Below are positions 3 to 26,310 of a DNA stretch of 26,310 nt, piece by piece. This DNA comes from a virus: IMG/VR virus record IMGVR_UViG_3300010153_000092, positions 1-26,310 of that record. One strand, given 5' to 3'. The number at the start of each line of letters is the position of its first letter. The first letter of the stretch is position 1. The position numbers were made by a program, and so were the translations under genes. Below the pieces are notes generated by a model. The model saw nothing but the letters and a program-made list of their open reading frames with translations. It was not told the DNA's origin and ran no database searches.

Positions 3-1115
3 AGGGATGAAAATGGTAAGGTATTGGAAAATGTAACAGACCTCGGGTTATTATATGGGGCTTATTACTTCCCAGCACCATTTTTGATTGCAACTTATCT
101 GATGTACTATGATAGTGAGATTAGTATTTCGAGGCGATTTTCTCAGGCTTATCAGAGGATACAGGTAGAGGTTGCCACCGCTGACGATAATTTGCTATCT
201 GCACTAAGCGGTCAACAAGTTTTTAAATTCCAGAAGGCATTATCATCTTATCCACAGAACGAGGTTACCTGGGATGGCTTACAGGTTACTTATTTTAATC
301 CTAAACAAGTTCAAAGCAGAATAGAATACTTGGATACCATCTTATTGAGAGATAAAGAAAGTTTCCTGCGCTGGCTTAAATTACAGGTAACAGTAACTGT
401 TGAACAGGCAGGCTACGGAAGCAACTCCACACTCCTGAATATTCCTGGATACAGAGCAGACTTGGTAACGAGGTTAGATGACCCGCCTTCTACTCATCCT
501 CGGGACTTCCTGCTGGCAACCCTGGATGGCTCTCTTCCTTCTTTGGTGGATGTTTTTGGGTCCCCCAATAATATATGGAACGCTCCTATTAGATCTTTCT
601 TCGCCACTTTTGAGAGGGTTCCTGCATACAGAGAGTGGTTTGATGCCGCTGTTAGGTCTGGACAATACCCCGCATTAGAAAATGATCTGCGCACGGGCAA
701 TTTATATGAATTTACTGCCACTCATGGCAAGCCCATGTTACAAAGTTCAAATTCAACTGCGGAAGACGGTGGTCGTATCGATAAAAAGTACTTTAATCTT
801 TCTGATATATTCCCCAATTATGCCTCCCAGTGGATGGACTTGATTACTCGTATATATTTTGTTTTTGCGGGCTATGAATACCAGACTACTTTAGATGTAA
901 CCACTACTGAAAATCCATCATATTATGAAACAAGTGAGGCATTTAGGGAAGTACATAACCTGATGACGAACTGGCTTGATGCCAAATTCACCCCCCCGGA
1001 TGTGCCCATCGATGATCGAAATTTAATAGAAGCTCCGGCAAATGCAATTGTGGTCTCTTCTTTGGCAAGGATGAGATCTGAAAGATCTCGTTTAGAGCAA
1101 CTACTTATAACATGA
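3..1115 (+). CDS. Partial phage structural-type protein, 5' end outside window
   Basis: This reading frame is open from base 3 to a TGA at 1113-1115, with no stop back to the window edge. The first possible start inside the window is a TTG at 24, but no Shine-Dalgarno precedes it and the codons before it (Arg-Asp-Glu-Asn-Gly-Lys-Val) read as ordinary coding sequence, so I take this as the C-terminal ~371 residues of a longer protein. The product is soluble-looking and rich in aromatic residues, with a mixed helical and beta appearance; it has no signal peptide or convincing membrane segment (the hydrophobic LLYGAYYFPAPFLIATY stretch near the left edge is interrupted by prolines). I do not recognise the family. 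Its stop overlaps the gp25-like start in an ATGA, so it is translationally coupled to the baseplate genes and probably encodes a tail or baseplate-associated component. That role rests on context only. Confidence 0.8.
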   Translation, partial: RDENGKVLENVTDLGLLYGAYYFPAPFLIATYLMYYDSEISISRRFSQAYQRIQVEVATADDNLLSALSGQQVFKFQKALSSYPQNEVTWDGLQVTYFNPKQVQSRIEYLDTILLRDKESFLRWLKLQVTVTVEQAGYGSNSTLLNIPGYRADLVTRLDDPPSTHPRDFLLATLDGSLPSLVDVFGSPNNIWNAPIRSFFATFERVPAYREWFDAAVRSGQYPALENDLRTGNLYEFTATHGKPMLQSSNSTAEDGGRIDKKYFNLSDIFPNYASQWMDLITRIYFVFAGYEYQTTLDVTTTENPSYYETSEAFREVHNLMTNWLDAKFTPPDVPIDDRNLIEAPANAIVVSSLARMRSERSRLEQLLIT

Positions 1116-1516
1116 GTAAACGACAGGGAATATCTCCAGCAGTACCACTTGTATATGACAGGACGGACGGTCCTTATCGTCTAAATAAAACTCTCTTGGA
1201 GGCTATAAAGCAAAACTTCAAGAATCTTATTCTGACTTCCCCAGGGGAACGAGTCATGCTTCCTGACTTTGGTGTAGGATTGAATAATTATTTATTTGAG
1301 AATATGGACGGTGATGTTTTCGACGCCTTGGTTGCTAGGATAAAAGAGCAAACAAGTTTTTATATCCCCTCGATAAATTTAGAGACCATAGATTTTTTGA
1401 CGAGCGATGAAGTTACTACTATGGCATTTAACGAAGTGCAGGTTGTTATCAAATATAATATCCTTCCTTTAGATGCTCAGGACCAACTAATAATAACTTC
1501 GGTAATGACTACTTAA
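1112..1516 (+). CDS. gp25-like baseplate wedge protein
   Basis: This 134-residue protein has the size (T4 gp25 is 132 aa) and hallmark motif of the gp25/P2-W/TssE family. Residues 38-57 read as an N-L-I-L-T-S-P-G-E-R-V-M-L-P-D-F-G-V-G-L block, the conserved PGER...P.FG.GL signature. In contractile tails this protein sits in the baseplate wedge next to the gp6/J protein and helps couple baseplate rearrangement to the first sheath ring. The start is the ATG of an ATGA overlap with the upstream gene. The next gene, gp6/J-like, begins 23 bases downstream, which is the classic W-J neighbour order and supports the call. It is full length and nothing looks broken. Family assignment is from recognised motif and context; I ran no search. 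Confidence 0.93.
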   Translation: MSKRQGISPAVPLVYDRTDGPYRLNKTLLEAIKQNFKNLILTSPGERVMLPDFGVGLNNYLFENMDGDVFDALVARIKEQTSFYIPSINLETIDFLTSDEVTTMAFNEVQVVIKYNILPLDAQDQLIITSVMTT

Positions 1517-1539: not shown

Positions 1540-3333
1540 ATGGCAAAAAGACCCATAAATTATACGAGCAGAGAGTTTAACTCAATAAAAGAGGATTTGG
1601 TTAACTATGCTCAACGCTATTATCCCACTACTTTCAAGGACTTTAGTGAGGCTTCTTTTGGGTCTCTTATGTTGGATATGGTTGCCTATGTCGGCGACCA
1701 ATTGTCTTTTTATACAGATTTTCAGACAAACGAAGGTTTTCTCGACAGTGCTATCCAGTACGACAGTATCAACAGGCTTTCGAATATTCTAGGATATAAA
1801 ACCCAGGGCGCTGCCCAATCAACAGGACAAGTAGCATTTTATATAATTGCACCCGCAGACCCCAATAGCCGAGGACCCGATTTAGATTATTTTCCTATAT
1901 TACAGAACGGAACAATACTCTCTTCAGATAATAACTCGGTATTTACCTTGATTGAAGATGTGGACTTCACAGACCCCTCTAATCAGATTACCGTTGCCCG
2001 AACTGATGTATCTACTGGTAACCCTACCTTTTTTGCTGTTCGGGCCTATGGGCAAGTAATATCGGGACAGAGGTATACCGAGACTATCACAATTGGAGAC
2101 TATGTTCGTTTTAATAGACAAAAACTTTCAAAAGAAAATATTACTGAAGTCCTCTCGGTAACAGATAGTCAGGGTAATGAATATTATCAGGTAGATTTTT
2201 TGACCCAAGATGTCATTATACAAGAGTTTAAAAACACTTCTAGCGATAGAATTGCTGCACCCTATGTTATGAAAATTAAACCTGTTCCTCGAAGGTTTGT
2301 AACAGAGCATACCTCCCAGGGGGAAACATTTATTCAGTTTGGGTATGGATCGGCTAATAACTTAACTGGGGATGTGGTTGCTGATCCTGCTGATGTAGTT
2401 CTTAATACTACGGGTCGTCAATATGTGTCTGATTTGACTTTTGATCCTACTAATCTTATTCAAAGTGATAAATTTGGGGTAGTTCCTACCGATACCGTTC
2501 TGACAGTTAGTTATACCGCTAATAACACGGACGATGTAAACCTAGCTGTAGATTCTTTGAACAATGTAATAGCCCCTCAGTTGTCATTCAAAAACCAAGC
2601 ACTCTTAGATCCAGCTTTGGTTTCTTCTGTAATCGCTTCAGTAGAGGTAGAGAATGAAGAGCCAATTTTGGGTGATACCTCAATTTTGACAGGGGAAGAA
2701 ATTAGGCAAAGAGCCTATGGAACCTTTGCCTCTCAGAATCGTGCGGTAACCAGGACTGATTATATTAATCTTATTTATAGAATGCCTTCTAAGTTTGGAA
2801 AGGTTAAGAGAGCAAATGTTGTTCGAGATGTAGATTCCCTAAAGCGCAATCTAAATGTGTATCTGTTGTCGGAGAATTCAGTAGGAAATCTTACCCCACC
2901 CAACCAAACAATACGAGAAAATACTAGAATTTGGCTAAACAAATATCGAATGATCAATGATACTATAGATGTTCTTGATGCCCGAGTGGTTAATATTGGC
3001 ATTAGGTTTAAAGTCCTTCCTGAGTTGGATATAAATCGCTATGAGTTATTGGAAACTTGCGTGCAAAAACTAAAAGATGAATATCTTAATATCAAATTCA
3101 ATGTAGGCGAGGCTGTATATATCTCCGAAATATACAAGCTACTTAATGATGTTCCTGGTGTCGTAGATACTATGGAAGTAGAACTGTTCAACAAAACTGG
3201 CGGTTTGTATAGTAATTACCGTTTTGATATAGATTCTAACTTATCGGATGACGGAAGATTCTTGATCCTCCCAGAAGACACTGCCGCTGAGGTGCTTTTT
3301 CCGGATACTGATATTGTAGGGGCGGTAACATAA
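1540..3333 (+). CDS. Baseplate wedge protein, gp6 / baseplate J-like
   Basis: This 597-residue protein is comparable to T4 gp6 (660 aa). The N-terminus (residues ~5-70) has the Y-T-S-R-E-F..I..DL opening followed by a D-F-S-E-A-S-F-G segment and a helix ending in a Y-V-G-D-Q-L-S-F-Y-T-D motif, which is typical of gp6-like wedge proteins of T4-type and marine myoviruses. Residues ~385-560 contain the baseplate-J-type core: RAVTRTDYINLIYRMP, then alternating beta strands and a G-E-A-V-Y-I-S-E-I-Y-K-L-L segment ending in DVPGVVD. In the virion gp6/J dimers form the ring joining the wedges. It follows the gp25-like gene by 23 bases and ends one base before the next start. A purine-rich AAGGCGAG lies upstream of the ATG, with a rather long spacer. 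The family call is strong; exact homologues were not searched. Confidence 0.9.
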   Translation: MAKRPINYTSREFNSIKEDLVNYAQRYYPTTFKDFSEASFGSLMLDMVAYVGDQLSFYTDFQTNEGFLDSAIQYDSINRLSNILGYKTQGAAQSTGQVAFYIIAPADPNSRGPDLDYFPILQNGTILSSDNNSVFTLIEDVDFTDPSNQITVARTDVSTGNPTFFAVRAYGQVISGQRYTETITIGDYVRFNRQKLSKENITEVLSVTDSQGNEYYQVDFLTQDVIIQEFKNTSSDRIAAPYVMKIKPVPRRFVTEHTSQGETFIQFGYGSANNLTGDVVADPADVVLNTTGRQYVSDLTFDPTNLIQSDKFGVVPTDTVLTVSYTANNTDDVNLAVDSLNNVIAPQLSFKNQALLDPALVSSVIASVEVENEEPILGDTSILTGEEIRQRAYGTFASQNRAVTRTDYINLIYRMPSKFGKVKRANVVRDVDSLKRNLNVYLLSENSVGNLTPPNQTIRENTRIWLNKYRMINDTIDVLDARVVNIGIRFKVLPELDINRYELLETCVQKLKDEYLNIKFNVGEAVYISEIYKLLNDVPGVVDTMEVELFNKTGGLYSNYRFDIDSNLSDDGRFLILPEDTAAEVLFPDTDIVGAVT

Positions 3334-3334
3334 G

Positions 3335-4849
3335 ATGGGTATAAAGAAATATTATGCTTCGGCAGACAATACAGTAACTAATGCATTTAAGGCTAATCTT
3401 CTTACTCGTGGCACCGGGTCTAATATGGGTGCTGCGGATATTTTAGAAACATTTGTAATACACGGTCAAACCTCTACCTCCTTATCAATACCTGCCTCAG
3501 AAGGGAATGCTAATGCGGCAGAACAATCAAGAGTGGTGATACAGTTTCCCACTTCCGATGTGGCTGCTGATATGTCTAGTGGGGTATTACCATCTGACTC
3601 TTCTAAAATAAAGTTCTATCTCAATTTGTACAATGCACCTCATGGAAGCACTGTGCCTTTAGATTATACCTTAGATGTTTATATGCTATCTGAAGCATGG
3701 ACTGAGGGTCGTGGCTTAGATATGGATAACTATACCGATCTAGGACAGTCAAACTGGGATAGGAGAGATTCTTCTAATACCTGGACGCAGGCAGGCGGCA
3801 CCTATCTAGCGGCAGGTGATACTAAAAAGACAGTAACTTTTGATACGGGACTGGAAAATGTTTTCCTAGATGTATCTACACAAGTTTATAAATGGCTAGA
3901 TAGCTCGGAAGCAAACAATGGCTTCCTTATCAAATTCCCTGATGCTGTAGTGTCGGGTAGCGATTCCTATTATACGAAAAAGTTCTTTTCTAGAACTAGT
4001 GAGTTTGAACTATACCGACCTACCTTAGAGGCTCGATGGGATTCTTCCCGCAAGGACAACAGAGCGAGTTTTTATATCAGTAGTAGTGTTGCTTCGGGAG
4101 CAGATAATCAAAATACTTTATTCATGTACAATTTTGTGCGAGGGCAACTCAAGAGTATTCCTAGCTTAGTAAACGATAGATTATCTGTAGACATTTATTC
4201 AGGATCGGCTGCTCCAACAGGAAATGCTTTACAAGTAGTAGTTGATACGGCAGGCACCGTAAGGACAACCATAACTGGTACTTTGCTTGTTGAAAACGGC
4301 GCTCAAGTCCCCGGAATTTATACTGCATCTTTTGCCAGTACCAGTTCATACGATACTATCTTTGATGTTTGGCATACTGGCTCTGGCGGATCCCGTGTGA
4401 ACTTTATATCCGGGTCTTATATTCCTAAAACAGTAAATACTGCTGATGGTATCCACGAAGAGGAGTATGTTACAACTCTTACTAATTTAGAAGACTCTTA
4501 TGATAAGGGTCAAAAGCCCACCTTAAGATTGTTCACTAGAAAAAAGAACTGGAGCCCTAATATTTATACGGTCGCCACATCTCAAGTGGTGCCCGAAATA
4601 ATTGAAGATGCTTATTATAGAATCTTTAGGGTTATAGATAATTTTGATGTCATCCCTTACGGTACCGGCAGTTCTAATAATAACTTTACTCGTTTATCTT
4701 ATGATGTTAGTGGAAATTATTTTGAACTAGATACCTCCTGTCTTGCCTCGGGTTATGCCTATGGAATTGGGTTTGCGTACTATTTACAGGGGGAATACCT
4801 AGAACAACCAGAAGTGTTCAAATTTAGAATTAAAGAAGAAGATAAATGA
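3335..4849 (+). CDS. Putative virion protein with DNRLRE-like beta domain
   Basis: This 504-residue protein has no membrane segments and is rich in Ser, Thr, Tyr and Asp. Residues 1 to ~240 resemble the DNRLRE/CBM-like beta-sandwich domain seen in extracellular and phage structural proteins: a strand-rich region, a W-T-E-G-R-G-L-D-M-D-N-Y-T-D segment, a C-D-V-S/T-type region (here LDVSTQVYKWLD), and a terminal F-F-S-R-T..F.LYRPTLEARW motif. Residues ~245-504 look like further beta-sandwich material, including a VPGIYTASFASTSSYDT segment. It lies one base after the gp6/J-like gene and overlaps the start of the giant 3,230-residue gene by ATGA, so it is translated as part of the baseplate block. 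Likely role: a baseplate-peripheral or glycan-contacting component. The virion assignment is inferred from context and the domain call is by eye. Confidence 0.75.
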   Translation: MGIKKYYASADNTVTNAFKANLLTRGTGSNMGAADILETFVIHGQTSTSLSIPASEGNANAAEQSRVVIQFPTSDVAADMSSGVLPSDSSKIKFYLNLYNAPHGSTVPLDYTLDVYMLSEAWTEGRGLDMDNYTDLGQSNWDRRDSSNTWTQAGGTYLAAGDTKKTVTFDTGLENVFLDVSTQVYKWLDSSEANNGFLIKFPDAVVSGSDSYYTKKFFSRTSEFELYRPTLEARWDSSRKDNRASFYISSSVASGADNQNTLFMYNFVRGQLKSIPSLVNDRLSVDIYSGSAAPTGNALQVVVDTAGTVRTTITGTLLVENGAQVPGIYTASFASTSSYDTIFDVWHTGSGGSRVNFISGSYIPKTVNTADGIHEEEYVTTLTNLEDSYDKGQKPTLRLFTRKKNWSPNIYTVATSQVVPEIIEDAYYRIFRVIDNFDVIPYGTGSSNNNFTRLSYDVSGNYFELDTSCLASGYAYGIGFAYYLQGEYLEQPEVFKFRIKEEDK

Positions 4850-13800: not shown

Positions 13801-14538
13801 ATCATGTCTGGTGAAAGTATGAAAACAACTCCTGTGGTTTATTTGATGGAACATAAAGTAAATCTTACACGACAGGATCTGGCAGATATGTGGCAGGGGA
13901 TTATGCCAGAATTATCCACAAAATTCCAGCACAGTATGACCTCAATAGATCACTATATGCCGGGTGATAAAGTAGAAGAAGAAGTAACTCGTTTCCCAGA
14001 GGTAATTAAGGAGCAGTTGAATCTTGGTGTCGAAATGACTGGTCATCCTCGTTATGATTTATTAGACATAGCCCAGAGCCCCGAAAAGCTTGGATTGTTT
14101 CCAGAGATCAAGTGGCTTGTTTTCAAAGTAAAAGAACGAGGGTTGTTAGATTATAACCAACTTATTATGGAAGAGGTTGACGGAGAATTTGTGCTAGACT
14201 ATGATAATGCTCGAAGGAGATTCTCAGGTACGACTCTCACGCCTGAAAATATAGACGCAATTCTTGGTGATCGTGACGAGTGGTCTAAGCTTGTCTACCG
14301 GTACCAGCACTCACTGGGTTCCCCCAGTTATAACTGGCCTTATGATTATTGCTCTGTTGTGGAACTTGGTAAGATCAATACAAAAATTAGTTTCCGACCG
14401 GATTTGAAGAAAGAGAACGAAGAAGATGTGGCAGATGCAGAATTCCGAACTCGTCAACTTCAGGCCTCAACACAGGAATCCCAACAGGTATCGGACCTGG
14501 GTAATTTATCTAATCTCTCCCGAAATTTAAATGGGTAG
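4846..14538 (+). CDS. Giant multidomain baseplate/tail protein with LamG-like and P2 gpI/gp7-like segments
   Basis: One uninterrupted frame of 3,230 codons starts at the ATG of an ATGA overlap. Domains seen by eye: residues ~160-372, a LamG/concanavalin-like jelly roll; ~450-590, a helical region resembling P2 tail protein I and gp7-type wedge proteins; ~658-890, a second jelly-roll-like segment with a Y-V-G-A-H-R-T-N-Y-T-G strand; ~1010-1120, charged helices ending in VLERPKIQHR; ~1319, a QGPFTKRHVGG motif; ~2070-2210, a small beta module; ~2268, an IVPEFRISEH motif; the C-terminal ~40 residues are Q/S/N-rich. It lacks the long uniform coiled coil expected of a tape measure. Its place just after W- and J-like genes suggests that it supplies the gpI/gp7 wedge function and projects carbohydrate-binding domains. 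Several motifs recall unnamed marine-phage proteins, from memory. The ORF is certain; the function is inferred. Confidence 0.85.
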   Translation: MSVKKLFQKNKQAVTVGKYLKASSPDGLGDGIESQAHLSSSLERQRYFLPSINYGDPKNFVKFGSAEQYYKNAFEYIANYFPYDGSVLERTSFYNDINPLEKFILEDVYPRSTGYVTIGADYGTVASDASGYYSSSAEYIQIKGGPHSGSIYNEDKNRTSNLEFGGEYGNTVEFFFKKEGLTDVLTSSDRQVLFDLWNGAPTTDSTYGRLRIEIRQGSEDSFFVTLLSGTTGFDAVRVPSAGGLTIADGTFRNYAFVFNTSGSSPTIDFFVNGSCVETAIPPAASAEIGLVTGSMIGNLGALRADIVGSPGVAEGYGKLSGSIDEFRFWKTNRNDEQVGRYWLSSVGGGSNKYDANVGLGVYLKFNEGITGTSSIDDDFLDYSGRLSNGIYTGYNPLYSRNTGSALDSLNLTSVTEVASPIVRTQNPLYTTKKAQYLLSGSNYDYQNGARLMNNLPNWIIEAEEAGANEIVDLTQIISSYFDTLYNQLTVMKGLKYTDYISGSVSASINQFPYNDRLVESFGIEAPEIFENIGTLAQFLQRDEQINFEQTLADVKNSIYKNIYNNLSYILKGKGNEKAIRNFIRCLGVGEDVIALNTYPSNSDFQLKSNYFSTSSPKKFADFTGLLNQSDDAATVYQYYDSTNANSVGFITGSSVIEEFAFSLQSEFVFPDKSNFRSLSYEVPKILEASLVGFHTPMDSSQTSTDLTWAAPADDYGLQVYAVRSPGEYAKVYSPLYQVRDAYFVVKNSAGATLLTSSIFNEVYDNQKWNLTLSLRPKKYPFADGINGASVAGDGYYLELYGVNYDTGMKRNSFLVSASMTAQDGANILESNKRIYVGAHRTNYTGSVLTQTDVRASSTRYWTDYFPSGTLDLQAKEADTHGRVRPYRNAYSFQTQNPGVYIPRIQTLAMNWEFTDITGSNASGRFGVSDLSSGSVAPDYVSNYQNPIFSKINLRQHTGRGDFFVANATPVRKEYVYTDKLQIPEYIGGDSMVTVMNSDDQTFGIYSRPVDFFFAVEKSMYRSISSQMLKLFASIEDFNNLIGEPVNKYRLNYKRMEKVREIFFRKVRNDIPDLEKYIDYYKWLDTSMSEMIEQLFPESARFADSVRKIVENHVLERPKIQHRASILRGRRSWPPPGITGGPSTSICYDAPGWKFNHAPLSNEQNENCFWWKTRALRDNPIFDTPVGILPTRNAVLNALQKEQSRNVVVCLTAEPRFPYYGGINQTWNKKRNMRNITFSRFEPLEDCTDDTEPNKKKKISFRVELGSGLYKGDNLSPFTAISSSVVSGYNAGLIASGLSGISITNLHEDSILPFRHSVPLQGPFTKRHVGGLQARHNAPFRTVDRAEEYTLEIASGTGSITTLTVQTVPKGKYLRGAGSKSPLNIENIKTVISDHTTGDGVRLVGNYSKYYEVVQGNDRSATNMDFVFNPTFYAYSAPTAFLTPPSRRALGLTGSAGYPAPRQRSGVRTNETIFVDLFSAPGSKQDSKQLFRDVNSDTMSPNNALPFRNEAVRRPGNLSHRQLGIPLGAGAGLAGYLRLHTGWGGFQADIAPELNDAYADPFIGVNALQYFNGGGIPMVAAWPAAGPPNIDNIMLGGYPGIGDVRLAALHKTQRNTTKRIEISGSIVVADIMKTGSVRDNAYVTRPIPSADRAEWTSYISGAATIATYGAYIAKGERYPDDITFANMPLNASPTWAKSVFYNTNMSKQFLWDKNYDFEIWKQLRNSDKPSAKYYWQHNTYELLPEVVESNVPGTNRVQRGFANSTLSREVKDIAIDENTSKYYYSVSLREAPVTSRYKPLVHQIRTPLGSPSKTSDEKITVSLDYSYGNELMAFANRRLNFDLKGNLKASYGIIKRPYEILREQRVPGTERSVAGLDLIEVFSYPETIYPKEVYTYLSGSRSRLSYLCDFWKEDIDVASFPVGSFTSYSNLLSETNQLTYVPQRARLKHPFVTSQGSTVLNSVQTPYNSLDASYPLGTGNGSGSIWPMDSYLYSDSTGSLVTVMTQSVPVLFADATTMACGELMMTSYGTINDRITNPAFSANTASYASSSINSAQYLYSVPVMSTGSVIVTPAVAADAEIEAVEITPSVLHDQVFQIKTTTVTVEFTFDTGSATPGGTGDDYTIGAQGPIADTNDVINRIYAAILLAKSSGDIDVTPTNPGAVGSTMRLDADVPGTAMNSETITGDAVTFGDITVVNWANGAAASTTAGNSLPEVRSPGSAYTRPAWTAGRERRYVDGPAKGQLAPASYPFYDNYEDFHRDTRLAGQDYTIVPEFRISEHVAEYEENGSLYSIISSSLEITGANANNFDGSNPQFYERFTQTDNIEFLADFMPNDRGNRNYIFNKFPRHFEISSEAKVRLLPYSGFYPVDRSLDLATLFRSTYENNAVLSSASPIPAQGWRAILRPFYAPGIMYNSIKSGLAVDYPIRRAGRNADQYYEKVASHTPLAGCLTGSLTAVAAGSIPGNKRRNNEDFDWANPDVNKFFWADRLPFETILSPIDALEAGFKEPTVLSDIRQFMAVDVSGSLTRKGLDDSLYKKAVSNFLANVPKFFLSRKVDSYGNEGYLTKFVSQFGTPPSAKAGSITTPVRTVEIDKGAAYMMEIGLMKTDQFNFYSNPYAFGMPTSTGSTSWETLNADQIPKPNSWPKHRAEFAPFTPSHYYGPSVARITFMPVGDKLTYTLDEIINNDRGELFVQYLNESGSYYDMASGSFISRDGVAMSSSATPTYGWNRAWQNRMDIDASISINNSFVTDYGSSYRSLDPNKWTIMPKWECPTLDFPDRSTSSDQYAFSSSVGQGYYTSSAQGMWHQYGTMPDNNQGSYLYIKDIPTGAEEEYDLVAIPYAGGSYTERAYTYVSKIPDFVSNAGRSVRSMADLVGFDPEEIIRAGFDTTKAKRLGELAADDEKSISEAILALPFYIDDKDQPRLITLQAPANKLGPKIKQFRKQFTKFSLPPSLGKSLLSMVPSDYPHVPDYINPFGGDEYDSIMSGESMKTTPVVYLMEHKVNLTRQDLADMWQGIMPELSTKFQHSMTSIDHYMPGDKVEEEVTRFPEVIKEQLNLGVEMTGHPRYDLLDIAQSPEKLGLFPEIKWLVFKVKERGLLDYNQLIMEEVDGEFVLDYDNARRRFSGTTLTPENIDAILGDRDEWSKLVYRYQHSLGSPSYNWPYDYCSVVELGKINTKISFRPDLKKENEEDVADAEFRTRQLQASTQESQQVSDLGNLSNLSRNLNG
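5323..5962 (+). other. LamG / concanavalin-like domain within the giant protein
   Basis: Residues ~160-372 of the giant protein show the usual LamG_3 strand order: V-E-F-F-F-K-K near the start, a LFDLWNG strand, R-L-R-I-E-I, an NYAFVFNTSG...IDFFVNG pair, and the diagnostic G-S-I-D-E-F-R-F-W-K strand, followed by an L-K-F-N-E-G close. This fold usually binds glycans or acts as a beta-sandwich spacer in phage virion proteins. Confidence 0.75.
6193..6615 (+). other. P2 gpI / gp7-like wedge segment within the giant protein
   Basis: Residues ~450-590 read as helices: L-P-N-W-I-I-E-A-E-E, then SYFDTLYNQLTVMKGLKYTDY, and an IYKNIYNNLSYILKGKGNEK block leading into AIRNFIRCLGV. The last part matches the Y-L-L-K-x-K-G-x-x-x-x-I-x-x-L-x-x-x-x-G-x pattern typical of tail protein I and similar wedge proteins. 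The position after W and J genes is as expected. This is similarity by eye and needs a profile search. Confidence 0.55.
6817..7515 (+). other. Second jelly-roll-like segment within the giant protein
   Basis: Residues ~658-890 alternate strand-like segments, including a VRDAYFVVKN strand, a KWNLTLSLRP strand, a YYLELYGVNYDTG hairpin and an R-I-Y-V-G-A-H...G-S-V-L-T strand near the end. The late G-(I/V)-G-(G/A)...G.L pattern is that of ConA/LamG folds. It is weaker than the first LamG-like domain and could be a different beta-sandwich. Confidence 0.4.
11053..11475 (+). other. Small beta module, possible domain insertion in the giant protein
   Basis: Residues ~2070-2210 differ from their surroundings: low in aromatic residues, rich in Ala, Thr, Asp and Gly, with alternating strands and a central helix (DVINRIYAAILLAKSSGDI) followed by a G-A-V-G-S-T-M-R-L-D strand. 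This resembles the compact T-V-E/T-F-T-F-D...AAI...I...G..G repeated modules found in many phage tail proteins. The flanking sequence is aromatic-rich on both sides, which is why an insertion is suspected. Confidence 0.4.
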
Positions 14539-14548
14539 TAATTAAGGT

Positions 14549-15463
14549 ATGGTTAAGTTTTTCGATCAAAAACAAGAGGTCATTCAAATCGAGCTTACTC
14601 CCTATGGGCGTGAGCAATATGCTAATGGTAAATTTTCTCCTCAATATTATACCTTTCATGATACCGGAATTCTTTATGATGGGATCTGTGGTTCTAAAAC
14701 TGAAACACAAAATGAGATTGTTACCCGAATAAAAAACACTACCCCCCGCCTACGACCACAAACTCGTTTTACTAGCTCTCTAGGTCAAGTAGTGACCCTA
14801 AAAAGCCTCAATAGTAAAAATCAATTCAAAGAAACTTTCCCTTATGTGGCAACTTATAACAGAGTACTTGGGGACAGTAGTGTGTGGTCAGATTATATGC
14901 CTTCGTGGGACATAACAGTGGACAAGGGGAGCACTACTCAAATCGATGAGGGGGTAGAATATTTAGCCGGTCGCACTATTCCCAGAGTGACGGTTAGCTG
15001 TAGTATAGAATATGATTATACTACCACCGAATCATCTACTCTATACACTTTATTAAAAAGCGATAAAATAATTCTTGACATGCAAGAATTAAACACTCAA
15101 TTTAAATTGAACGGAAATTTTGACATCGAAATATTTAAAGTTGATCGTGGTAAAGGTCTCCAATCACTGGGCTTCATAAACCCGGAAACTCAAAACTCTC
15201 AGGCTTTAAGTAATCAAACTTACCCTAGTCAGATGGCAGAAACCATCGCAGGGACGAATGCTGATATTCTTGCTGGTTTCCCAAAACTAGATAACACCTA
15301 TGTGGAATATTATTTAGATGTTATGTTAGATCAAGAAATAGACGGAGTTTCAATGCCTTCTAATTCTACAATCTATAAGAGTAATTTCAATAAGAACCCC
15401 GGAAGCATTTGTCTTACGGACGAGGGTAGACCCACCTATAATACTGACCCTGGCGGTAAATAA
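14549..15463 (+). CDS. Conserved phage structural-type protein of unknown function
   Basis: This 304-residue protein begins MVKFFDQKQEVIQ and has a recognisable N-terminal block at residues ~8-45: E-V-I-Q-I-E-L-T-P-Y-G-R-E-Q-Y, then G-K-F-S-P-Q-Y-Y-T-F-H-D and ILYDG. I recall this pattern (E.I...LT.YG...L..GKF.P.YY.F.D..I.YD) from uncharacterised proteins encoded beside tail genes in marine and large myoviruses, but I cannot name a function. No signal peptide, membrane segment or coiled coil is seen. It starts 10 bases after the giant gene. The only Shine-Dalgarno-like bases (TAAGG at 14543-14547) lie one base from the ATG, too close for a normal site, so translation may depend on ribosomes finishing the upstream gene. 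The next start is two bases past its stop. A virion role is inferred from context. Confidence 0.75.
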   Translation: MVKFFDQKQEVIQIELTPYGREQYANGKFSPQYYTFHDTGILYDGICGSKTETQNEIVTRIKNTTPRLRPQTRFTSSLGQVVTLKSLNSKNQFKETFPYVATYNRVLGDSSVWSDYMPSWDITVDKGSTTQIDEGVEYLAGRTIPRVTVSCSIEYDYTTTESSTLYTLLKSDKIILDMQELNTQFKLNGNFDIEIFKVDRGKGLQSLGFINPETQNSQALSNQTYPSQMAETIAGTNADILAGFPKLDNTYVEYYLDVMLDQEIDGVSMPSNSTIYKSNFNKNPGSICLTDEGRPTYNTDPGGK

Positions 15464-19232: not shown

Positions 19233-22200
19233 ATGACACTTACACGAAAAATTAAACTCAAAGCACCTGGCGGGGGATCTGGACCTTTTAAGAGGTTTTA
19301 CGAGGATTCTTCTATGACTAATCCCGTTGTACAGGATAGGAGCCTTCATATAACCCCTGAGGGTTCGAACCATCGAATACAATATTCACTAGGAGGATGG
19401 TCTACACCAGACGATGATCAAGATCCGGGAGTTCCCCTCTCAAGACAAGATGCCACAGAGGAGCAAAAATTACAATGGATAAATGCATATGCTCAGCCAT
19501 CCATTTACGGTGAGTCCGATCGGCAGCACTCACAAACCTCATACATTTCCCAGGCTTCAGGGTCGCAAACTTATAATAGCTTGCCACGACTTCTATCTCA
19601 GCTACGAGAAAGAAGTATTACTCGGGTCCTTCTGTCCGAGAATGTTAGAGATTATTTAAGAATGGTATCTATCGATACGGCGACCTATAACCCTGAAACT
19701 GAACAAACTACTGTATCTGTAAGTTCTTTTTATCAAGATTTGTTCCGTACTGCTCCTGATGGTGTTGTTATGCGTCATACAATGGAAATAATTCAAAAAG
19801 TTCGAGTGGGTGGCGAGAGCATCGCTCCCATATATATGCCGGAATATCTTTATCAGGCGAAGAGAAAGATCCTGTCAATGATAGAGCAAACCACCGAGGG
19901 ACAGCCTCTTACTAAAATGGTTGCGCTGTTCGCCTTAAGCCCCCGCTACACTGCTGAAGACCGTGGCAGCGCCCTCAGCGCTATTGTGCTACTCGACGAC
20001 CCATCTTGGAAAACCTGGTTAGCTACTGGCGGAGATGTAACAACTGAAGAAGTGAACCTCATTTGGTCCAGGACCAAATTGGCCGCTGCGTTCTGGCCCC
20101 GCATACCTGTGTGGATGGACGAATCTCTCGAAGCAGCCCGGGCCCAAGCCTGGGAACTACGAGGCGAACTCCCTGAGATAGAAAGATTACAAGAAATAGA
20201 TATTTCAAGCATTGCTGATTCTTTGGACTACCTTGTTCCTAAATTATTTATTTCGCCTGCACAACTTGGACAACAAAAGCTGCAAAATATGCAGGACAGC
20301 CGCATAGCATTATTTAATGCAATCCGCAATTTGATAGGAAAAGAAGAATTAGTTAGGCTGGTTTTCCAAGGTCAGTCGGTCTCTTCCTGTCCCTATGGTT
20401 CTTTTGATGTACAGATTTCTACTCCTTTTGTAACCAGGAAGGAGATATACCCACTCTTAGAACTCGGTAACGGAGTAGTTCAGCGGTCCACGGGAGCAAA
20501 AATAGACCCTCAGTATCTTCTATATAACAAGCATTATGAAGAAGCTATAAGCGGTTCTTTTGTAACCGAAGGTATACTGCCTAATTTTTATATATATAAT
20601 CTTTATGCCTCCTCATATCGGGATGACCGAGGTCTTAGGAAGACCGATGCCTGGGAGGGGTCAAGGTCATCGAACCACCAAATAGAGGGACACTACCAGG
20701 ATCAGCTTTCACTAGGTGGTATTATTTCCGAAACGGATTTACCTACATCTGGTCAAGGATCTGGTGATTATCTACATACCTACTCCAGAGAAGTAAGCAG
20801 CCCTGCATTATCAGATCGAAGAAAGTCTTTTTTAGAGGCAGCAAGTAAATCTTTGATATTTCCGGCAACCGACGGAAATATGTTATGGAACCTTAGAGGT
20901 GAACACACAGGGCTGCCAATGCACATTGAAACTAGTTTCACGCCGGAAAACATTGGACCCGTGGGTGAGGTTATAAAAAACAGTGGTGTAAGTACTACAT
21001 TGCTGGAGTCGCTTCGAACTCAAGAGCCAATTTCTGATATAAAATATGATACGAGTACCGATCTTGTCATGGGTGTGTTGTTTGGGACCCCAGAGAGTAA
21101 ATATGTGAGCCATGTCCCATTCGGGGAAAGGTCCTATAACACTTATGACATCTTCCGGTCTCTAGACTTCGGCAAAAGCGGGGAGACTATTACATCCCTC
21201 GTGGTGACCGAAAAGGGGCTTGAACCCGTTACTGGAATGGGATTAACTAACGATCAAGTTAGCGAGGTGGACAGAGCCAAACGCCAAATTAGGTCTCTAT
21301 TGCCGTGGCAAACACCAGATTATCCTGACTTACTTCGTTCTGGCACATCTTTGTCTTCCGAGGCTTTAGGGTATGTTTTGCGTAAATATGACACAGACGG
21401 GAATATCCTTCAGGAAATAATGTTTGGGAACACGGGAGACCTACAAGTCCTCTCCTATATTGATACACAAGTCAAATACAATACAAATTATACTTATGAA
21501 CTCAATGAGTTCCGGATGGTTTATGTTCCTCGTTATGATTTATTTATGGCAGATGCAATCCTACCTCAAATTCTCTCAACATATCCTGACTATCCTTCTA
21601 TCGTTGCAAACCAAGCAAACCTCGCAGACTCCGATATGAATCCGTATTATGATATTTATACTTCAGAAAAATCAGAAGGTCTTATTGTAGAGGTTCCTAT
21701 TTATGGGTCTGCTTATGATGTCCCGAATTTTGAGGATGTAGCGGGTTCGGTAGAATATCCCACTGCAAAGATAATGGATTATCCTCCTACTACGCCTGAG
21801 ATGCAGATTCTCCCCTTGTTGTCGAACTATAGGCAGATAAAAATAAACATACAACAAAACACAGGAGATTATATTGGAAAGAGTTCCTTGGATGTGGTCT
21901 CTTTGCCAGAGACCCTAGTCAGGCATACAGAACTTTATGACTACCAATCTCAGTTTGAGTATTATATTCTTAAGCCAGGGAAGTTGGGGTTTAGGAATGA
22001 TGGGATTGATGAAGTTGCTACCGCTCGCCTCTATAGAACAAAGAATATTATCAATAATGTCTCAGAGTATTCCGAACTTTATAGATCTTTTGGGATCGAT
22101 GGCAGCGAAACTTTGACTATGACTATTGACCCTGCTCTCTCATCAGAAAATAGTGTTTTGTCGCTGGACATTGTTGATACCATCGAGCCCAATGAGTATT

Positions 22201-22598
22201 ATTACTACACTTGTGTGGTTGAAGATGTTCATGGAAACCCTTCTAATCCTTCCCCTATTTATAGAGTGCGGCTTGTATACGAAAAAGGTCTTTACATTCC
22301 AGAAATAGAAGTATATAATTTTACTCCAATAAATAACCAAAGACCAACGAGGAAATTCGCCCGGTTTATGCAAATACAGGCATCTGATATTCAAACATTT
22401 CCTTTTGTCGATATTGATGAAAATGGTGCTTCAGTGGGCACAAAGAACCTCGCTGAGCGAACCGACTCAGGAATCATCGGTCAAGAGTTCATAGTCAGAT
22501 TGACTTCTAAAGATACGGGGCGCAAATTTGATGTTAAACTTTCTTTTAACGAAAAACTTACTGAAAAATTCATAGAAAGTGATGACCCCGATGAATAA
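19233..22598 (+). CDS. Large virion-associated protein with FN3-like segments
   Basis: This 1,121-residue protein starts at an ATG with a strong ribosome site. The N-terminus is basic (MTLTRKIKLKAPGGG). Residues ~110-380 are mainly helical and include a Trp- and Ala-rich part (~230-310) encoded by unusually GC-rich DNA. Later regions are beta-rich. Residues ~705-765 and ~930-1016 look fibronectin-III-like: the first has GYVLRKYD...Y.D..V.Y.TNYTYEL, the second has L-D-I-V-D-T-I-E-P-N-E-Y-Y-Y-Y-T-C, then DVHGNPSNPS and Y-R-V-R-L-V. The C-terminus has a TGRKFDVKLSF segment and ends acidic. No enzyme motif or membrane segment was seen. FN3-like domains are common spacers in phage tail-tip and baseplate proteins, so a peripheral baseplate role fits, but it is inferred. 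It is the last gene before the 70-base gap with the palindrome. Confidence 0.75.
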   Translation: MTLTRKIKLKAPGGGSGPFKRFYEDSSMTNPVVQDRSLHITPEGSNHRIQYSLGGWSTPDDDQDPGVPLSRQDATEEQKLQWINAYAQPSIYGESDRQHSQTSYISQASGSQTYNSLPRLLSQLRERSITRVLLSENVRDYLRMVSIDTATYNPETEQTTVSVSSFYQDLFRTAPDGVVMRHTMEIIQKVRVGGESIAPIYMPEYLYQAKRKILSMIEQTTEGQPLTKMVALFALSPRYTAEDRGSALSAIVLLDDPSWKTWLATGGDVTTEEVNLIWSRTKLAAAFWPRIPVWMDESLEAARAQAWELRGELPEIERLQEIDISSIADSLDYLVPKLFISPAQLGQQKLQNMQDSRIALFNAIRNLIGKEELVRLVFQGQSVSSCPYGSFDVQISTPFVTRKEIYPLLELGNGVVQRSTGAKIDPQYLLYNKHYEEAISGSFVTEGILPNFYIYNLYASSYRDDRGLRKTDAWEGSRSSNHQIEGHYQDQLSLGGIISETDLPTSGQGSGDYLHTYSREVSSPALSDRRKSFLEAASKSLIFPATDGNMLWNLRGEHTGLPMHIETSFTPENIGPVGEVIKNSGVSTTLLESLRTQEPISDIKYDTSTDLVMGVLFGTPESKYVSHVPFGERSYNTYDIFRSLDFGKSGETITSLVVTEKGLEPVTGMGLTNDQVSEVDRAKRQIRSLLPWQTPDYPDLLRSGTSLSSEALGYVLRKYDTDGNILQEIMFGNTGDLQVLSYIDTQVKYNTNYTYELNEFRMVYVPRYDLFMADAILPQILSTYPDYPSIVANQANLADSDMNPYYDIYTSEKSEGLIVEVPIYGSAYDVPNFEDVAGSVEYPTAKIMDYPPTTPEMQILPLLSNYRQIKINIQQNTGDYIGKSSLDVVSLPETLVRHTELYDYQSQFEYYILKPGKLGFRNDGIDEVATARLYRTKNIINNVSEYSELYRSFGIDGSETLTMTIDPALSSENSVLSLDIVDTIEPNEYYYYTCVVEDVHGNPSNPSPIYRVRLVYEKGLYIPEIEVYNFTPINNQRPTRKFARFMQIQASDIQTFPFVDIDENGASVGTKNLAERTDSGIIGQEFIVRLTSKDTGRKFDVKLSFNEKLTEKFIESDDPDE
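19920..20165 (+). other. GC-rich patch inside the 1,121-residue gene
   Basis: Hand counting of 19921-20160 gives about 57% G+C (137 of 240). Of single 60-base lines nearby, the one ending at 19920 gives about 48% and 20221-20280 about 38%. It encodes residues ~230-310 (ALSPRYTAEDRG...FWPRIPVWMDE...AWELRGELPE), rich in Trp, Ala and Leu and probably helical. Codons such as GCC, CTC, AGC and CCC are more frequent here than nearby. The frame is intact throughout. Confidence 0.6.
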
Positions 22599-22668: not shown

Positions 22669-23712
22669 ATGGGATTTTTAGACAATAGCGGTGATATACT
22701 TCTAGACGCCGTACTTACAGATGCGGGACGAAAGAGACTAGCTGCCGGTGACGGAAGTTTTAGAATATCTAAGTTTGCTCTAGGCGATGATGAGATTAAT
22801 TACTCATTGTATACTCCCGTTACTTCGTCTGGTTACCAGGATTTGAGAATTTTGCAATTGCCTGTTTTAGAGGCTTTTACTAACAATACAAGTGTTCTGA
22901 AGAATAAGTTATTGACTTATGCTGACAATAGCCTCTTGTATCTTCCGGTGATCATGCTGAACAACAACGGTCTCGTGGGGAATGTAACAGCTACGGGAGC
23001 CACACCAGCATTTTCTGGTTATTATGCCTCTGTAGATGCCACGACCGTTACTGAAACGACTATTGGTAATGATGGGCGCTCACCTGGCTTTTTGTTTATC
23101 GATGATGCCTCTGCTGCTCTGCCAAAAAATGGTTCCATGGTATTCGACCAGGGATTAGATACTACAGAATTATCTCTAAATTATCTATCAAGTAATCAAA
23201 GAAATCTTGTTGAGACGCAATATATTATTGAGGCTGACAACCGCCTGCTCCAGTTGAGAACTACTTCGGGTGATCACTCGATTGCTACACCTACTTTTGT
23301 GGATGATGATAGTGTCGCCAGTTATTATTTCTCTCTAAACTCAAATCCAGGTTATTTTGGTGCCCAGCCTGACGGCGCTGGACCCACAGAACAAGGCGGC
23401 GCACCAGGATTTGACTATACTATCACTGATCCAGGTGGGGTCAATGCTTCGTCTTTGGGTAAGGTTATCGGCGGCGACGGAACCACTACAGGTCGCTTAG
23501 GTACTCGACTTGTGTTCGGTCTGCGAGCCACACTAGACCTTCAGACTTCTACCACGCTGTTTACCCAGTTGGGCGGTGAGATGTCTGTAACTATTGATGG
23601 TACGCCTAAGACATTTTATTATGTTGATACGGTCGTTAGAGTAACCGGATTTACGACTGGGTATCGCACTGATGTCCCCGTAAGACTACTGAAGTGGAAA
23701 ATCACTCCATAA
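22669..23712 (+). CDS. Phage structural protein, possible tail-fibre/baseplate adaptor (P2 gpH N-terminus-like)
   Basis: This 347-residue protein begins MGFLDNSGDILLDAVLTDAG. Residues ~13-45 carry the pattern L-T-D-A-G-R-K-R-L-A-A-G...F-R-I-S-K-F-A-L-G-D-D, which resembles the LT.AG...LA.A......I..MAVGDG opening of P2 gpH and related tail-fibre attachment proteins (Phage_tail_fib/DUF3751 type). The rest is beta-rich and low in Cys, with Gly/Pro/Asp-rich turns around residues 230-270 and no enzyme motif. I recall closely similar N-termini from unnamed marine myovirus proteins. It follows the 70-base palindrome gap, has a good ribosome site, and leads a set of three similar-sized genes. A structural role is likely; the H-like relation is by eye. 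Confidence refers to a phage structural CDS. Confidence 0.75.
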   Translation: MGFLDNSGDILLDAVLTDAGRKRLAAGDGSFRISKFALGDDEINYSLYTPVTSSGYQDLRILQLPVLEAFTNNTSVLKNKLLTYADNSLLYLPVIMLNNNGLVGNVTATGATPAFSGYYASVDATTVTETTIGNDGRSPGFLFIDDASAALPKNGSMVFDQGLDTTELSLNYLSSNQRNLVETQYIIEADNRLLQLRTTSGDHSIATPTFVDDDSVASYYFSLNSNPGYFGAQPDGAGPTEQGGAPGFDYTITDPGGVNASSLGKVIGGDGTTTGRLGTRLVFGLRATLDLQTSTTLFTQLGGEMSVTIDGTPKTFYYVDTVVRVTGFTTGYRTDVPVRLLKWKITP

Positions 23713-23713
23713 T

Positions 23714-23718
23714 AAGGA
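23714..23718 (+). promoter_or_regulatory. Ribosome binding site for the 358-residue gene
   Basis: AAGGA lies just after the previous stop codon and 7 bases before the ATG at 23726. It supports that start. Confidence 0.65.
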
Positions 23719-23725
23719 ATAAGAA

Positions 23726-24802
23726 ATGGCTACTAGTTTTAAGACACTACTAAGTACAGATGTAACCCAGAACCGGACAAAGCTCCACGAGGCAATCCCT
23801 CTAACTGGTACAATCCTATCGGGCACCTATGGAACATTTGGTGCGGAAACTAACATTAAGAATTACTCTCATGGAATGTTTCAGTCAGTTTACGATTATC
23901 CTTATCTAAGTTCATCTGCAAATCATATTTTGGATTTGACTGTGGGGTTATCTACCGCTATCCTTCCGGCAGAGGTAGCTTCTGCTGTTCAGCTTAATCA
24001 AAAAAATGATATTTATAATGAAATGGCACAAATTCTATGTGGCTATGATTCGAGTGGAAACATTCAGCGTTTCGATAATCTAGGAGATTTTGGTGGCTCT
24101 ACTGAGGCGCAAAAAATGAATGGTGTTTATTTTGTGAACCTAGCCAGACTTCTAACAAAAGATGAGATTCAAAAAGTATCTGGAGGTGGTTTTTCCCTAA
24201 TTTTTAATGCTGGTAGTGATCTAACTCCCGCTACTATTGGTGACGAATTAGTCACCCTAACAGATTCAAATGCTACAAATGCACTCACTAATTCCCCCGC
24301 AGGCGAATTCAATGTTTTGTATGCTGCTTCCAGTGATGGTTCTCCTACCGCCGCACCTTGTGGACTCTTATTCTATCAAGCCGGCATTGCTGTCATAAGT
24401 TCCTCTGTGTTCCAAGATACCATTGCTGCCGGGAATAGACCAATGAATCCGGCTGCCCAAACCGCCACACAGGTTATGGTCTTGGGTGCCATCAGCGCCA
24501 GCGCAGATGCCTTCCGCCGCCGAACAAGAGATCTTAGTTTTAACAACACTACTGAACTAAACTCTACTATTTACTTCTGCCGAGCAGGATCTAATGAATT
24601 CAATTATAGTAGTAATCCCACTTACCTAAATTCTAGCAAGATTCAAGTAAAGAATGTTGCCAGTGACGACCCGGTTTCCTACATTACTACCGTGGGTCTC
24701 TATGGAGCTAATAATGAAATGTTAGCAGTTGGCAAGTTAAGTGAGCCACTGAAAAAGACTCCTGCTGATGAATTCACACTCAGGGTAAGATTAGACTACT
24801 AA
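23726..24802 (+). CDS. Phage structural protein with gpH-type C-terminal motif
   Basis: This 358-residue protein begins MATSFKTLLSTDVTQNRTKL, then a G-T-I-L-S-G-T-Y-G segment and a SHGMFQSVYDYPYLSSSANH block, a combination I recall from unnamed structural proteins of marine myoviruses. The last ~40 residues read YITTVGLYGANNEMLAVGKL, then SEPLKKTPADEFTLRVRLDY. This parallels the (R)E-(L/V)-G-L-(Y/F)-D...L-I-A-V-A/G-N...E..K segment of P2 gpH-like tail-fibre proteins and the C-terminus of the next gene's product. Ala/Ser/Thr content is high and there are no membrane segments. It begins 13 bases after the preceding stop and ends 10 bases before the next start. Probable role: virion component at the baseplate periphery or fibre attachment site. 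The virion role is inferred from context; the motif relation is by eye. Confidence 0.75.
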   Translation: MATSFKTLLSTDVTQNRTKLHEAIPLTGTILSGTYGTFGAETNIKNYSHGMFQSVYDYPYLSSSANHILDLTVGLSTAILPAEVASAVQLNQKNDIYNEMAQILCGYDSSGNIQRFDNLGDFGGSTEAQKMNGVYFVNLARLLTKDEIQKVSGGGFSLIFNAGSDLTPATIGDELVTLTDSNATNALTNSPAGEFNVLYAASSDGSPTAAPCGLLFYQAGIAVISSSVFQDTIAAGNRPMNPAAQTATQVMVLGAISASADAFRRRTRDLSFNNTTELNSTIYFCRAGSNEFNYSSNPTYLNSSKIQVKNVASDDPVSYITTVGLYGANNEMLAVGKLSEPLKKTPADEFTLRVRLDY

Positions 24803-24808
24803 AGGGGG
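24803..24808 (+). promoter_or_regulatory. G-rich ribosome binding site for the 397-residue gene
   Basis: AGGGGG follows directly on the stop codon of the preceding gene and is 4 bases from the ATG at 24813. The spacing is short but usable, and no better start lies nearby. Confidence 0.5.
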
Positions 24809-24812
24809 TCCC

Positions 24813-26006
24813 ATGGCATACCTCCATGAGTTCGGTCCCGATGATATCTTCATAAACCGGATGATTGCTAATCCGTCTTATGAGTTTCTCATGTATAGTG
24901 GGTCAGCATATATTAATAATGATCGCTACCAGGGGGTAAATATTCCTACTGGGTCTATAAGTCTTTATGAATACAATGTCGATCGTGATGGTACAGCCCA
25001 ACAACTTATTTATCCGTTCTTAATTAAGGATGGTCACTGGTTGGCTTTCCCTAGTGTAACAACTTCTTCTTATGCTAGTCAGCCATATGGTACGGTGATT
25101 ACTGGCTCTTATCCGCTAACCGCCTCTATGTACCGTCATTATTATCACGCCACCACGGATCCTTTTCCTGCGGGAACAAACGCCCAGAAGGACGCCTACA
25201 CTACAAACCGCCGTGAATTGGTAGCATTACAAAATACTATGAATTACTATAGAAATATAAGTAATAAGTATGAATATACTGGGGAGTATGTTGATGGAGT
25301 GGTAAATATGATCCAAATTCCATCAATATTTTTTGAGTCCGGAATCGAGAAGGGTTCTGTAAGTCTCAAATTTTATTATACTGGGTCTTTGATGGACGAG
25401 GCAGTTGATAGTCTTCAAAACGGAGAGCTTATTTCTACTATGGGAGATACCGCCGGTAGTGTCGTGGGTATGGTTCTTTACAATGAAGGCTTTGTCCTTC
25501 TAACTTCCTCTGTAAATATTAACACTACATCCTATGATGATTATCTAGGTACTGGTGACCCCACCACCAATGTTAATCCAAGGTGGACCTATTTTGGCAG
25601 CTACTTGGCGACCAGTAGTGCTGGCGGATTTCCTACTGCTAGCATCAGTACTCTAACCTTCAAAGGGACCCAGAAAATCCCCACGATGACGATGTTTGCA
25701 AGCATTCAGCCTGGTCAGGCAAACAATTCTCTAAATCCTACTTGGATAAGTTCCTCTAATGGGGATTGGAGAGGTAGAACAGTCACCGGCTCGGGCGGAT
25801 ATGTGGAGCCCAGACAGCTTGTGATTAAAAATACTATTCAGAGCCAATATTGTGATTTTGAAGAAGAGTTTAGCAAACAGACTTTCATAACCGAGATTGG
25901 CATATATGATGACGAGAAGAATATGATTGGAGTAGCCAAGTTGGCAAATCCAGTTATGAAAAAAGAGCTTGACGAATATACATTTAAGCTTAAGCTAGAT
26001 CTCTGA
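24813..26006 (+). CDS. Phage structural protein with gpH-type C-terminal motif, second copy
   Basis: This 397-residue protein begins MAYLHEFGPDDIFINRMIAN, followed by P-S-Y-E-F-L-M-Y-S-G-S-A-Y and a P-T-G-S-I-S-L-Y-E-Y-N-V-D-R-D segment. The central part has a helix (residues ~125-150) and then beta strands (SIFFESGIEKGSVSLKFYYT). The C-terminus, FITEIGIYDDEKNMIGVAKL then ANPVMKKELDEYTFKLKLDL, matches position by position the end of the preceding gene's product, so the two share a C-terminal domain although the rest differs. That motif recalls the P2 gpH-type fibre attachment domain. It begins 10 bases after its neighbour and is followed 11 bases later by the RuvC-like gene, so it is the last virion gene of the block. 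A structural role is inferred from context and motif; the exact position in the virion is unknown. Confidence 0.75.
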   Translation: MAYLHEFGPDDIFINRMIANPSYEFLMYSGSAYINNDRYQGVNIPTGSISLYEYNVDRDGTAQQLIYPFLIKDGHWLAFPSVTTSSYASQPYGTVITGSYPLTASMYRHYYHATTDPFPAGTNAQKDAYTTNRRELVALQNTMNYYRNISNKYEYTGEYVDGVVNMIQIPSIFFESGIEKGSVSLKFYYTGSLMDEAVDSLQNGELISTMGDTAGSVVGMVLYNEGFVLLTSSVNINTTSYDDYLGTGDPTTNVNPRWTYFGSYLATSSAGGFPTASISTLTFKGTQKIPTMTMFASIQPGQANNSLNPTWISSSNGDWRGRTVTGSGGYVEPRQLVIKNTIQSQYCDFEEEFSKQTFITEIGIYDDEKNMIGVAKLANPVMKKELDEYTFKLKLDL

Positions 26007-26017
26007 TATACTAACTT

Positions 26018-26310
26018 ATGATTTTAGGATTAGATATTTCTACCACCATGGTAGGCGTTGCTATACTTGATGAAACAGGCAAGCTTGTAAAGAGCGAAGC
26101 TTGGGATATATCAAAGAGCGATACTTTGTTTGATAAGGCAGAATTTGTTGGGGCAGAACTGTATGCATTGAGGTCTGACTATAAAATTGACCACATATTT
26201 ATTGAAACAGCCCTAAAGAAATTCTTACCAGGCAAATCTCGTGCTGATACTATTTTGAAGCTGGCAAAGTTTAATGGTATCGTCTCTTGGATTTGTTTTG
26301 AATCATATGA
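26018..26310 (+). CDS. RuvC-like Holliday junction resolvase, 3' end outside window
   Basis: Ninety-seven codons are visible and no stop is met before the window edge. The opening MILGLDISTTMVGVAILDET is the first beta hairpin of an RNase-H-fold nuclease of the RuvC group, with Asp6 in the position of the first catalytic carboxylate (E. coli Asp7). The segment DHIFIETALKKF places Glu63 where E. coli RuvC has Glu66. The C-terminal carboxylates would lie beyond the window. Such enzymes cut branched DNA and are used by phages to resolve recombination and replication intermediates before packaging. The start lies 11 bases after the preceding stop with no clear Shine-Dalgarno. Other RNase-H-fold proteins share the first hairpin, but the spacing of Asp6 and Glu63 favours RuvC. 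Confidence 0.8.
   Translation, partial: MILGLDISTTMVGVAILDETGKLVKSEAWDISKSDTLFDKAEFVGAELYALRSDYKIDHIFIETALKKFLPGKSRADTILKLAKFNGIVSWICFESY

Follow-up and report, generated by a model that had tools for sequence, protein, structure and literature searches.

Opening and closing parts of a P2 gpH-like attachment domain on separate, neighbouring predicted tail proteins of a viral contig

This analysis concerns three consecutive genes, here called A, B and C, near the end of the virus record IMGVR_UViG_3300010153_000092; the entire record of 26,310 bases is referred to as the window. The N-terminus of A resembles the opening part of the N-terminal attachment domain of P2 gpH, and the C-termini of B and C resemble its closing part. 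This separation of gpH-like parts onto neighbouring proteins is well supported by the profile comparisons described below. The relation of A, B and C is to a known attachment domain (gpH/PF12571), of which the two-protein arrangement is a variant. The fuller interpretation is that the three genes make up a conserved tail module whose proteins share out a gpH-like attachment fold, its pieces joining from one chain to another; we give this slightly less than an even chance. In the virion, the module would probably sit at the edge of the baseplate.

The gpH-like segments of A, B and C

The three open reading frames (ORFs) and the motifs quoted for them in an earlier note on this DNA were confirmed. 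The opening motif, LTDAG...KFALGDD, occupies residues 16-41 of A, and the closing motifs are VGLYG...AVGKL at residues 323-338 of B and IGIYDD...GVAKL at residues 362-377 of C. In P2 gpH (NC_001895), both motifs lie in one chain, as that note had stated, and PF12571 (Phage_tail_fib, DUF3751), the N-terminal domain of P2 gpH and of R-pyocin fibres, spans residues 1-151. According to excerpts of two reports (PMC6363177, PMC6116203), the presumed role of this domain is to anchor the fibre N-terminally on the baseplate. The opening and closing motifs of the window match it in order and position. In PF12571, however, both parts belong to one chain at the fibre N-terminus, whereas here each is carried by a different protein, the closing part at the C-terminus.

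We built a gpH profile from 11 gpH-type N-termini of named phages, one of which begins mid-gene, and aligned it with hhalign. The segment gpH 5-38 matched residues 12-42 of A at 86.5%, gpH 86-115 matched the C-terminus of B at 83.0%, and gpH 81-114 matched that of C at 89.3%. Reversed-profile controls for these matches gave 0.1-0.4%. The aligned stretches were short, at 25-38 columns. Smaller and more diverse profiles, which included phages immuto, Mel-JY01 and RM378 and the sequence LR756508, gave 89.0% for the opening part and 88.7% for the closing part.

An empirical null was assembled from 2052 ORFs of at least 90 amino acids (aa) from related loci, grouped into 21 families of at least 10 members each. 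The opening half of gpH matched only the two A families (91.5% and 86.8%; next 6.4%), and the closing half matched only the four B/C-type families (84.5, 78.8, 77.8 and 65.0%; next 1.2%), with reversed controls of at most 1.0%. The opening segment reached at most 6.4% in the B/C-type families. One alignment had run over gpH 4-143, which made A a candidate for a complete gpH domain, yet gpH 42-149 alone gave 0.4% with each of the two A families; A lacks the closing segment, and the candidate was rejected. These comparisons bear out the claim that A has the opening part only, at its N-terminus, and that B and C have the closing part only, at their C-termini.

No Pfam match was found for A, B or C at E-values (E) up to 1, so that PF12571 was not reached by any of them. 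Across related sequences, PF12571 weakly matched 3 of 14 closing domains (best E 0.087) and 0 of 12 opening pieces. Among the PHROGs, closing pieces gave weak matches to PHROG 1162, of the tail fibre / tail collar fibre class, in 5 of 14 cases (best E 0.011), and opening pieces to PHROG 1800 and PHROG 1780 of the same class in 1 of 12 each (E 0.056 and 0.15). The commonest PHROG matches of both kinds of piece were unnamed families, and the fibre matches were not used as proof. A sequence search of the PDB gave no credible match for A, B, C, either piece, or the gpH N-termini.

Recurrence, duplication and predicted folds

Related loci were gathered with C, which gave 17, and with A or the A N-terminus, which gave four sets, made up of the best 80 of at least 237, 511, 500 and 579 confirmed. 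The 342 loci searched were reduced to 294 once those with an identical A protein had been dropped. A gene with a closing domain lay downstream of A in 276 of the 294, within 60 nucleotides (nt) in 273, and the remaining 18 loci had at most 981 bases of contig beyond A. The loci were selected by A or by C; for those selected by A, the choice itself did not ensure that a closing gene would follow. Two closing genes were found in 249 loci and one in 24 (some of these contigs are cut), and three, four and five in one locus each. The opening piece started no more than 3 residues from the ORF start in 293 of 297 ORFs, and the closing piece ended no more than 3 residues from the ORF end in 516 of 531, with 3 more at contig ends set aside. 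No ORF among the 297 opening and 534 closing ones held both parts. As judged from these sequences, the A-then-closer layout is old. A occurs in two types, long-A, which is the window's kind (139 paired loci), and short-A (113).

The opener-closer neighbourhood is shared by Flavobacterium phage immuto (gp107-105), Microcystis phage Mel-JY01, Rhodothermus phage RM378 (p129-p127) and LR756508; the copies in the three named phages are annotated as hypothetical, and LR756508 is without annotation. In Mel-JY01 (L101:12652-21595), five consecutive genes of 352-954 aa each end in or near a closing domain. In RM378 (L102:8440-11021), an opener is followed by a closer and a second, weak opener (E 7e-4). 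Some loci depart in detail. At L205:2439-3052, about 600 nt separate A from the next closing-domain gene, compared with under 60 nt in most loci. In the A gene of LR756508 (L103:9989-10003), none of the start codons ATG, GTG and TTG occurs from the in-frame stop at 9989 up to the conserved start, and an isoleucine codon takes the place of the Met of its relatives.

An hhalign alignment of 202 columns (99.2%, E 1.4e-19) shows B and C to be paralogues and indicates that the duplication took in the closing domain along with part of the body. The window also encodes a second opening-type protein at 14549-15463, 7 kb upstream of A, with the N-terminus IELTPYGREQYANGKFSPQYYTFHDTGILYD. This N-terminus matched that of A at 94.1% over 68 columns, and of the 21 families those of A alone gave a match (68.0 and 89.2%), with no other above 0.8%. 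Its match to the opening half of gpH was only 10.4%, and its relation to gpH is therefore indirect, by way of A. Its relatives were found in 13 viral contigs, and none were found in the phages collection at E 0.1. The earlier description of a domain that "split and duplicated" is thus borne out in its second half, as the closing part is duplicated and the opening part occurs twice; the word "split" assumes a one-chain ancestor. We also observed free closing-domain proteins of 95-101 aa in three contigs (L237:11613-11915, L242:10761-11063 and L244:10795-11079), a few kb downstream of A and B.

Single-chain AlphaFold models were obtained for A and B. The A model (83 sequences) had a mean predicted local distance difference test score (pLDDT) of 79.3 and a predicted template modelling score (pTM) of 0.73. 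Residues 92-347 formed a β-sandwich, weaker near 101-111 and 241-250, and block means over residues 1-90 were 43-78. The B model (76 sequences; mean pLDDT 75.4, pTM 0.68) had a mostly well-defined body at 40-276 and pLDDT below 50 at 277-305; block means were 66-72 over 311-350, with strands at 318-326, 332-344 and 350-355. The earlier note had named folding of each protein as a complete unrelated domain as a result that would speak against it. This holds in part, in that A and B each fold a body; the body lies outside the segment that matches gpH, and the segments are poorly defined alone. In these models, the poorly defined segments would fit a shared domain and would equally fit flexible ends.

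Proposed joining of the pieces and its alternatives

We consider joining between chains the likeliest mechanism. A would supply the LT.AG helix and the FALGDD strand, ahead of its immunoglobulin (Ig)-like body, and B and C would supply the YITTVGLY and ELLAVAKLS strands, behind their β-sandwich bodies. By interchain complementation, the A N-terminus, acting as a socket, and a C-terminal closing domain, acting as a plug, would complete one fold. The completed fold would anchor B, C or additional proteins on the baseplate, and one A type would serve several closers. Joining is favoured by the non-overlapping halves of a known attachment domain, the regular presence of a closing gene after A, the lack of any ORF with both parts, the poor definition of both gpH-like segments when A and B are modelled singly, the free closers, the P2-like gene order and the A46-B307 coupling of the long-A clade.

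In a first covariation run, based on mutual information with 82 rows kept of 93 paired loci, the A N-terminus scored 2.06 and 2.01 with the two closing domains, about equal for B and C. Its scores with the bodies were also raised (1.75 and 1.59), and other segment pairs gave at most 1.14. Mean-field direct coupling analysis (mfDCA) was run three times with 137 of the 139 long-A loci. Within A, the couplings joined predicted strands (95-159, 189-340 and 194-285). The top inter-protein pair was A46-B307 in all three runs (z 8.6, 9.3 and 9.7), and the A N-terminus was enriched 1.97-2.31 in pairs with the B closing domain. The pair A75-B192, outside the closing domain, reached z 8.4. With 128 rows and the two segments only, A46-B307 gave z 7.7 and the next pair 4.1. 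The maxima of 40 full shuffles averaged 5.0 (highest 8.8); a second 40, intended as shuffles within clusters, were also full shuffles as all rows formed one cluster (mean 5.0, highest 6.6). The residue pairs are chemically sensible, with E, S or T at A46 occurring mostly with R at B307, and G or R mostly with V.

On the tree, two classes of A46/B307 states, picked post hoc after the pair-type table had been viewed, shared 8 branches of 26 and 25 changes where 2.4 were expected, and the direction matched on every one. When full residue states were used, A46-B307 ranked 302nd of 13,833 pairs, and closing-domain pairs made up 14 of the 69 pairs in the top 0.5% versus 18.4% expected. The best co-changing pair between the A N-terminus and B fell in the closing domain in both clades, at positions that differ: A19-B328 (p 4.8e-8) in long-A and A29-B346 (p 1.2e-8) in short-A. 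Pairs that link the A body to the closing domain came close in strength (1.5e-7 and 3.6e-7). Taken together, the covariation data are mixed, with a suggestive signal in one clade, and lean toward a contact between A and B.

Several results weigh against joining. In mfDCA, the A N-terminus was not enriched in pairs with the C closing domain (0.67, 1.13), and at least 1 of the 80 long-A shuffles exceeded the observed 7.7. The short-A clade (102 rows) gave no signal, with a top z of 5.9 versus a shuffle mean of 5.4 and a highest shuffle value of 7.2. The tree gave no overall enrichment of pairs between the A N-terminus and the closing domain; the fractions below 1e-3, for closing domain versus body, were 0.0053 versus 0.0060 and 0.0072 versus 0.0071 in the two clades. 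Two to five closers go with one A, and in RM378 a single closer lies between two openers, so the pairing is not one to one. We must also note that residues 1-30 of B were also poor in the model (39-43); low confidence is hence not special to the B closing domain.

Nearly as likely as joining is that the pieces are independent short modules, descended from or resembling parts of the gpH fold, which do not meet. The A N-terminus would then dock on another baseplate protein or on copies of itself, and the closing domain would dock elsewhere or trimerise. Closing domains that stand alone at 95-101 aa agree with this, as do the unequal numbers of openers and closers and the tree, with its lack of overall opener-closer covariation; flexible ends or alignments of little depth may account for the poor confidence of the models. 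On the other hand, the pieces complement each other within one domain and, wherever the contig suffices, always lie next to each other, and a purely independent pair would have no need to keep both.

It is improbable that the pieces join with partners other than their neighbours, for example the B or C closers with the opener at 14549-15463, and A with only one closer. The window does hold two openers and two closers, and mfDCA favours A-B over A-C, but mutual information was about equal for the two, and the family of the second opener is known from far fewer contigs than A. Chance or generic likeness, in which the short glycine-rich helix-strand and hairpin motifs of many phage proteins would resemble gpH without common descent, is very unlikely and was already disfavoured by the profile comparisons: the short alignments and the Pfam results would allow it, but the reversed controls stayed at or below 1% and both halves of gpH were separated by a clean gap from the 15 other families of the same loci.

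If the pieces join as proposed, they would form a natural two-piece docking tag, with one socket for several plugs and with fibre docking separated from the fibre chain. The three hypothetical genes, which occur in hundreds of aquatic phage contigs as well as in immuto, Mel-JY01 and RM378, would then gain a testable role. We regard as less likely than not the wider generalisation that a widespread group of aquatic phages docks tail proteins by a two-piece gpH fold, in which the A piece accepts the plugs of 1-5 proteins, including the free ones of 95-101 aa, and C-terminal attachment replaces the usual fibre N-terminus. No earlier description of the A-B-C module was seen in the titles and abstract openings of the literature matches listed, a set that leaves subscription journals mostly outside.

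Gene context and structural likenesses

The module belongs to a contractile-tail cluster on the + strand of the window (Table 1), which runs from the gp25-like and gp6-like genes through large proteins without a clear family match to A, B, C and the start of a RuvC-like gene. This order recalls P2, where H follows I. No Pfam match was found for the gp6-like protein. Among the large proteins, a 3230-aa reading frame at 4846-14538 had no PHROG match at E up to 1. By eye, the 1121-aa protein at 19233-22598 seemed likely to have a C-terminus related to that of A, a relation rejected at hhalign 0.1-0.5%.

Table 1. Positions in the window of the tail module, its gpH-like segments and related or neighbouring genes.
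Feature	Position	Strand	Basis and remarks
gp25-like baseplate wedge protein	1112..1516	+	Pfam PF04965, 44.5 bits (cut-off 27.2); PHROG 261
gp6-like baseplate wedge protein	1540..3333	+	PHROGs 10646 and 219, E 3e-18 and 7e-15
Second opening-type protein, 304 aa	14549..15463	+	Residues 1-69 related to A N-terminus
Gene A, 347 aa	22669..23712	+	N-terminal opening piece, then Ig-like β-sandwich body; ORF, family, synteny, model
A segment aligned with gpH 5-38 (residues 12-42, LTDAG...KFALGDD)	22702..22794	+	hhalign 86.5%
A body, residues 92-347, Ig-like sandwich	22942..23709	+	AlphaFold; VIA Z up to 6.4
Gene B, 358 aa	23726..24802	+	β-sandwich body, then C-terminal closing domain; ORF, model, synteny
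B closing domain, residues 271-358; gpH-like part ~317-346	24536..24799	+	hhalign 83.0% to gpH 86-115
Gene C, 397 aa	24813..26006	+	Last 235 residues paralogous to B; hhalign B-C 99.2%
C closing domain, residues 282-396	25656..26000	+	hhalign 89.3% to gpH 81-114

The A body resembled integrin, PAD, pilin, chaperone and p53-like sandwiches in VIA, with Z-scores too low to give it a family name. Foldseek returned nothing from the PDB at E ≤ 0.001 for A or B. In BFVD, the B model matched seven viral proteins at E ≤ 0.001, of which three are uncharacterized, three nameless and one lectin/glucanase-like. A 95-aa P1 protein matched B by structure over 41 columns (prob 0.89, E 0.83), and was not identified in the P1 stretch. 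The best two rows for the B body were the C-terminal domain of T4 gp6 (3h2t, 5iv5), with Z 4.0, root-mean-square deviation (rmsd) 4.3 over 101 residues and Z 3.5, rmsd 4.8 over 110, below the tool's meaningful level. No sequence relation of the B body to T4 gp6 was found, and the window phage has a separate gp6-like gene.

Only 2 of 12 VIA rows aligned to the B closing domain, itself a medium-confidence model, and both were neck proteins, of Sf14 (9c39 chain K) and Bas63 (9mt4). The matches gave Z 2.5, rmsd 2.3 over 54 residues and Z 2.0, rmsd 2.5 over 53 residues; the fold compared was that of the C-terminal half of the neck protein, residues 53-107. The neck protein belongs to the family of the Felix O1 ORF55 homologue (PHROG 240, weak PF23140 Gp80), and the Felix O1 homologue has a similar SLWD...VATGALSKP stretch. 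It differs from the closers in being a single chain of 110 aa located at the neck. A neck profile of only four sequences gave weak matches: 14.3% with the B closing domain, 3.7% with that of C, 21.1% with gpH over 84 columns and 0.4% with the A N-terminus. According to an excerpt of the Sf14 report (PMC11821841), the gp30 and gp31 whiskers share a gp30 chain that threads two whiskers.

Directly 3' of C, at 26018-26308, we observed the start of a RuvC-like Holliday junction resolvase gene (PHROG 827, E 1.4e-5; under the Pfam cut-off), which is truncated by the window end.

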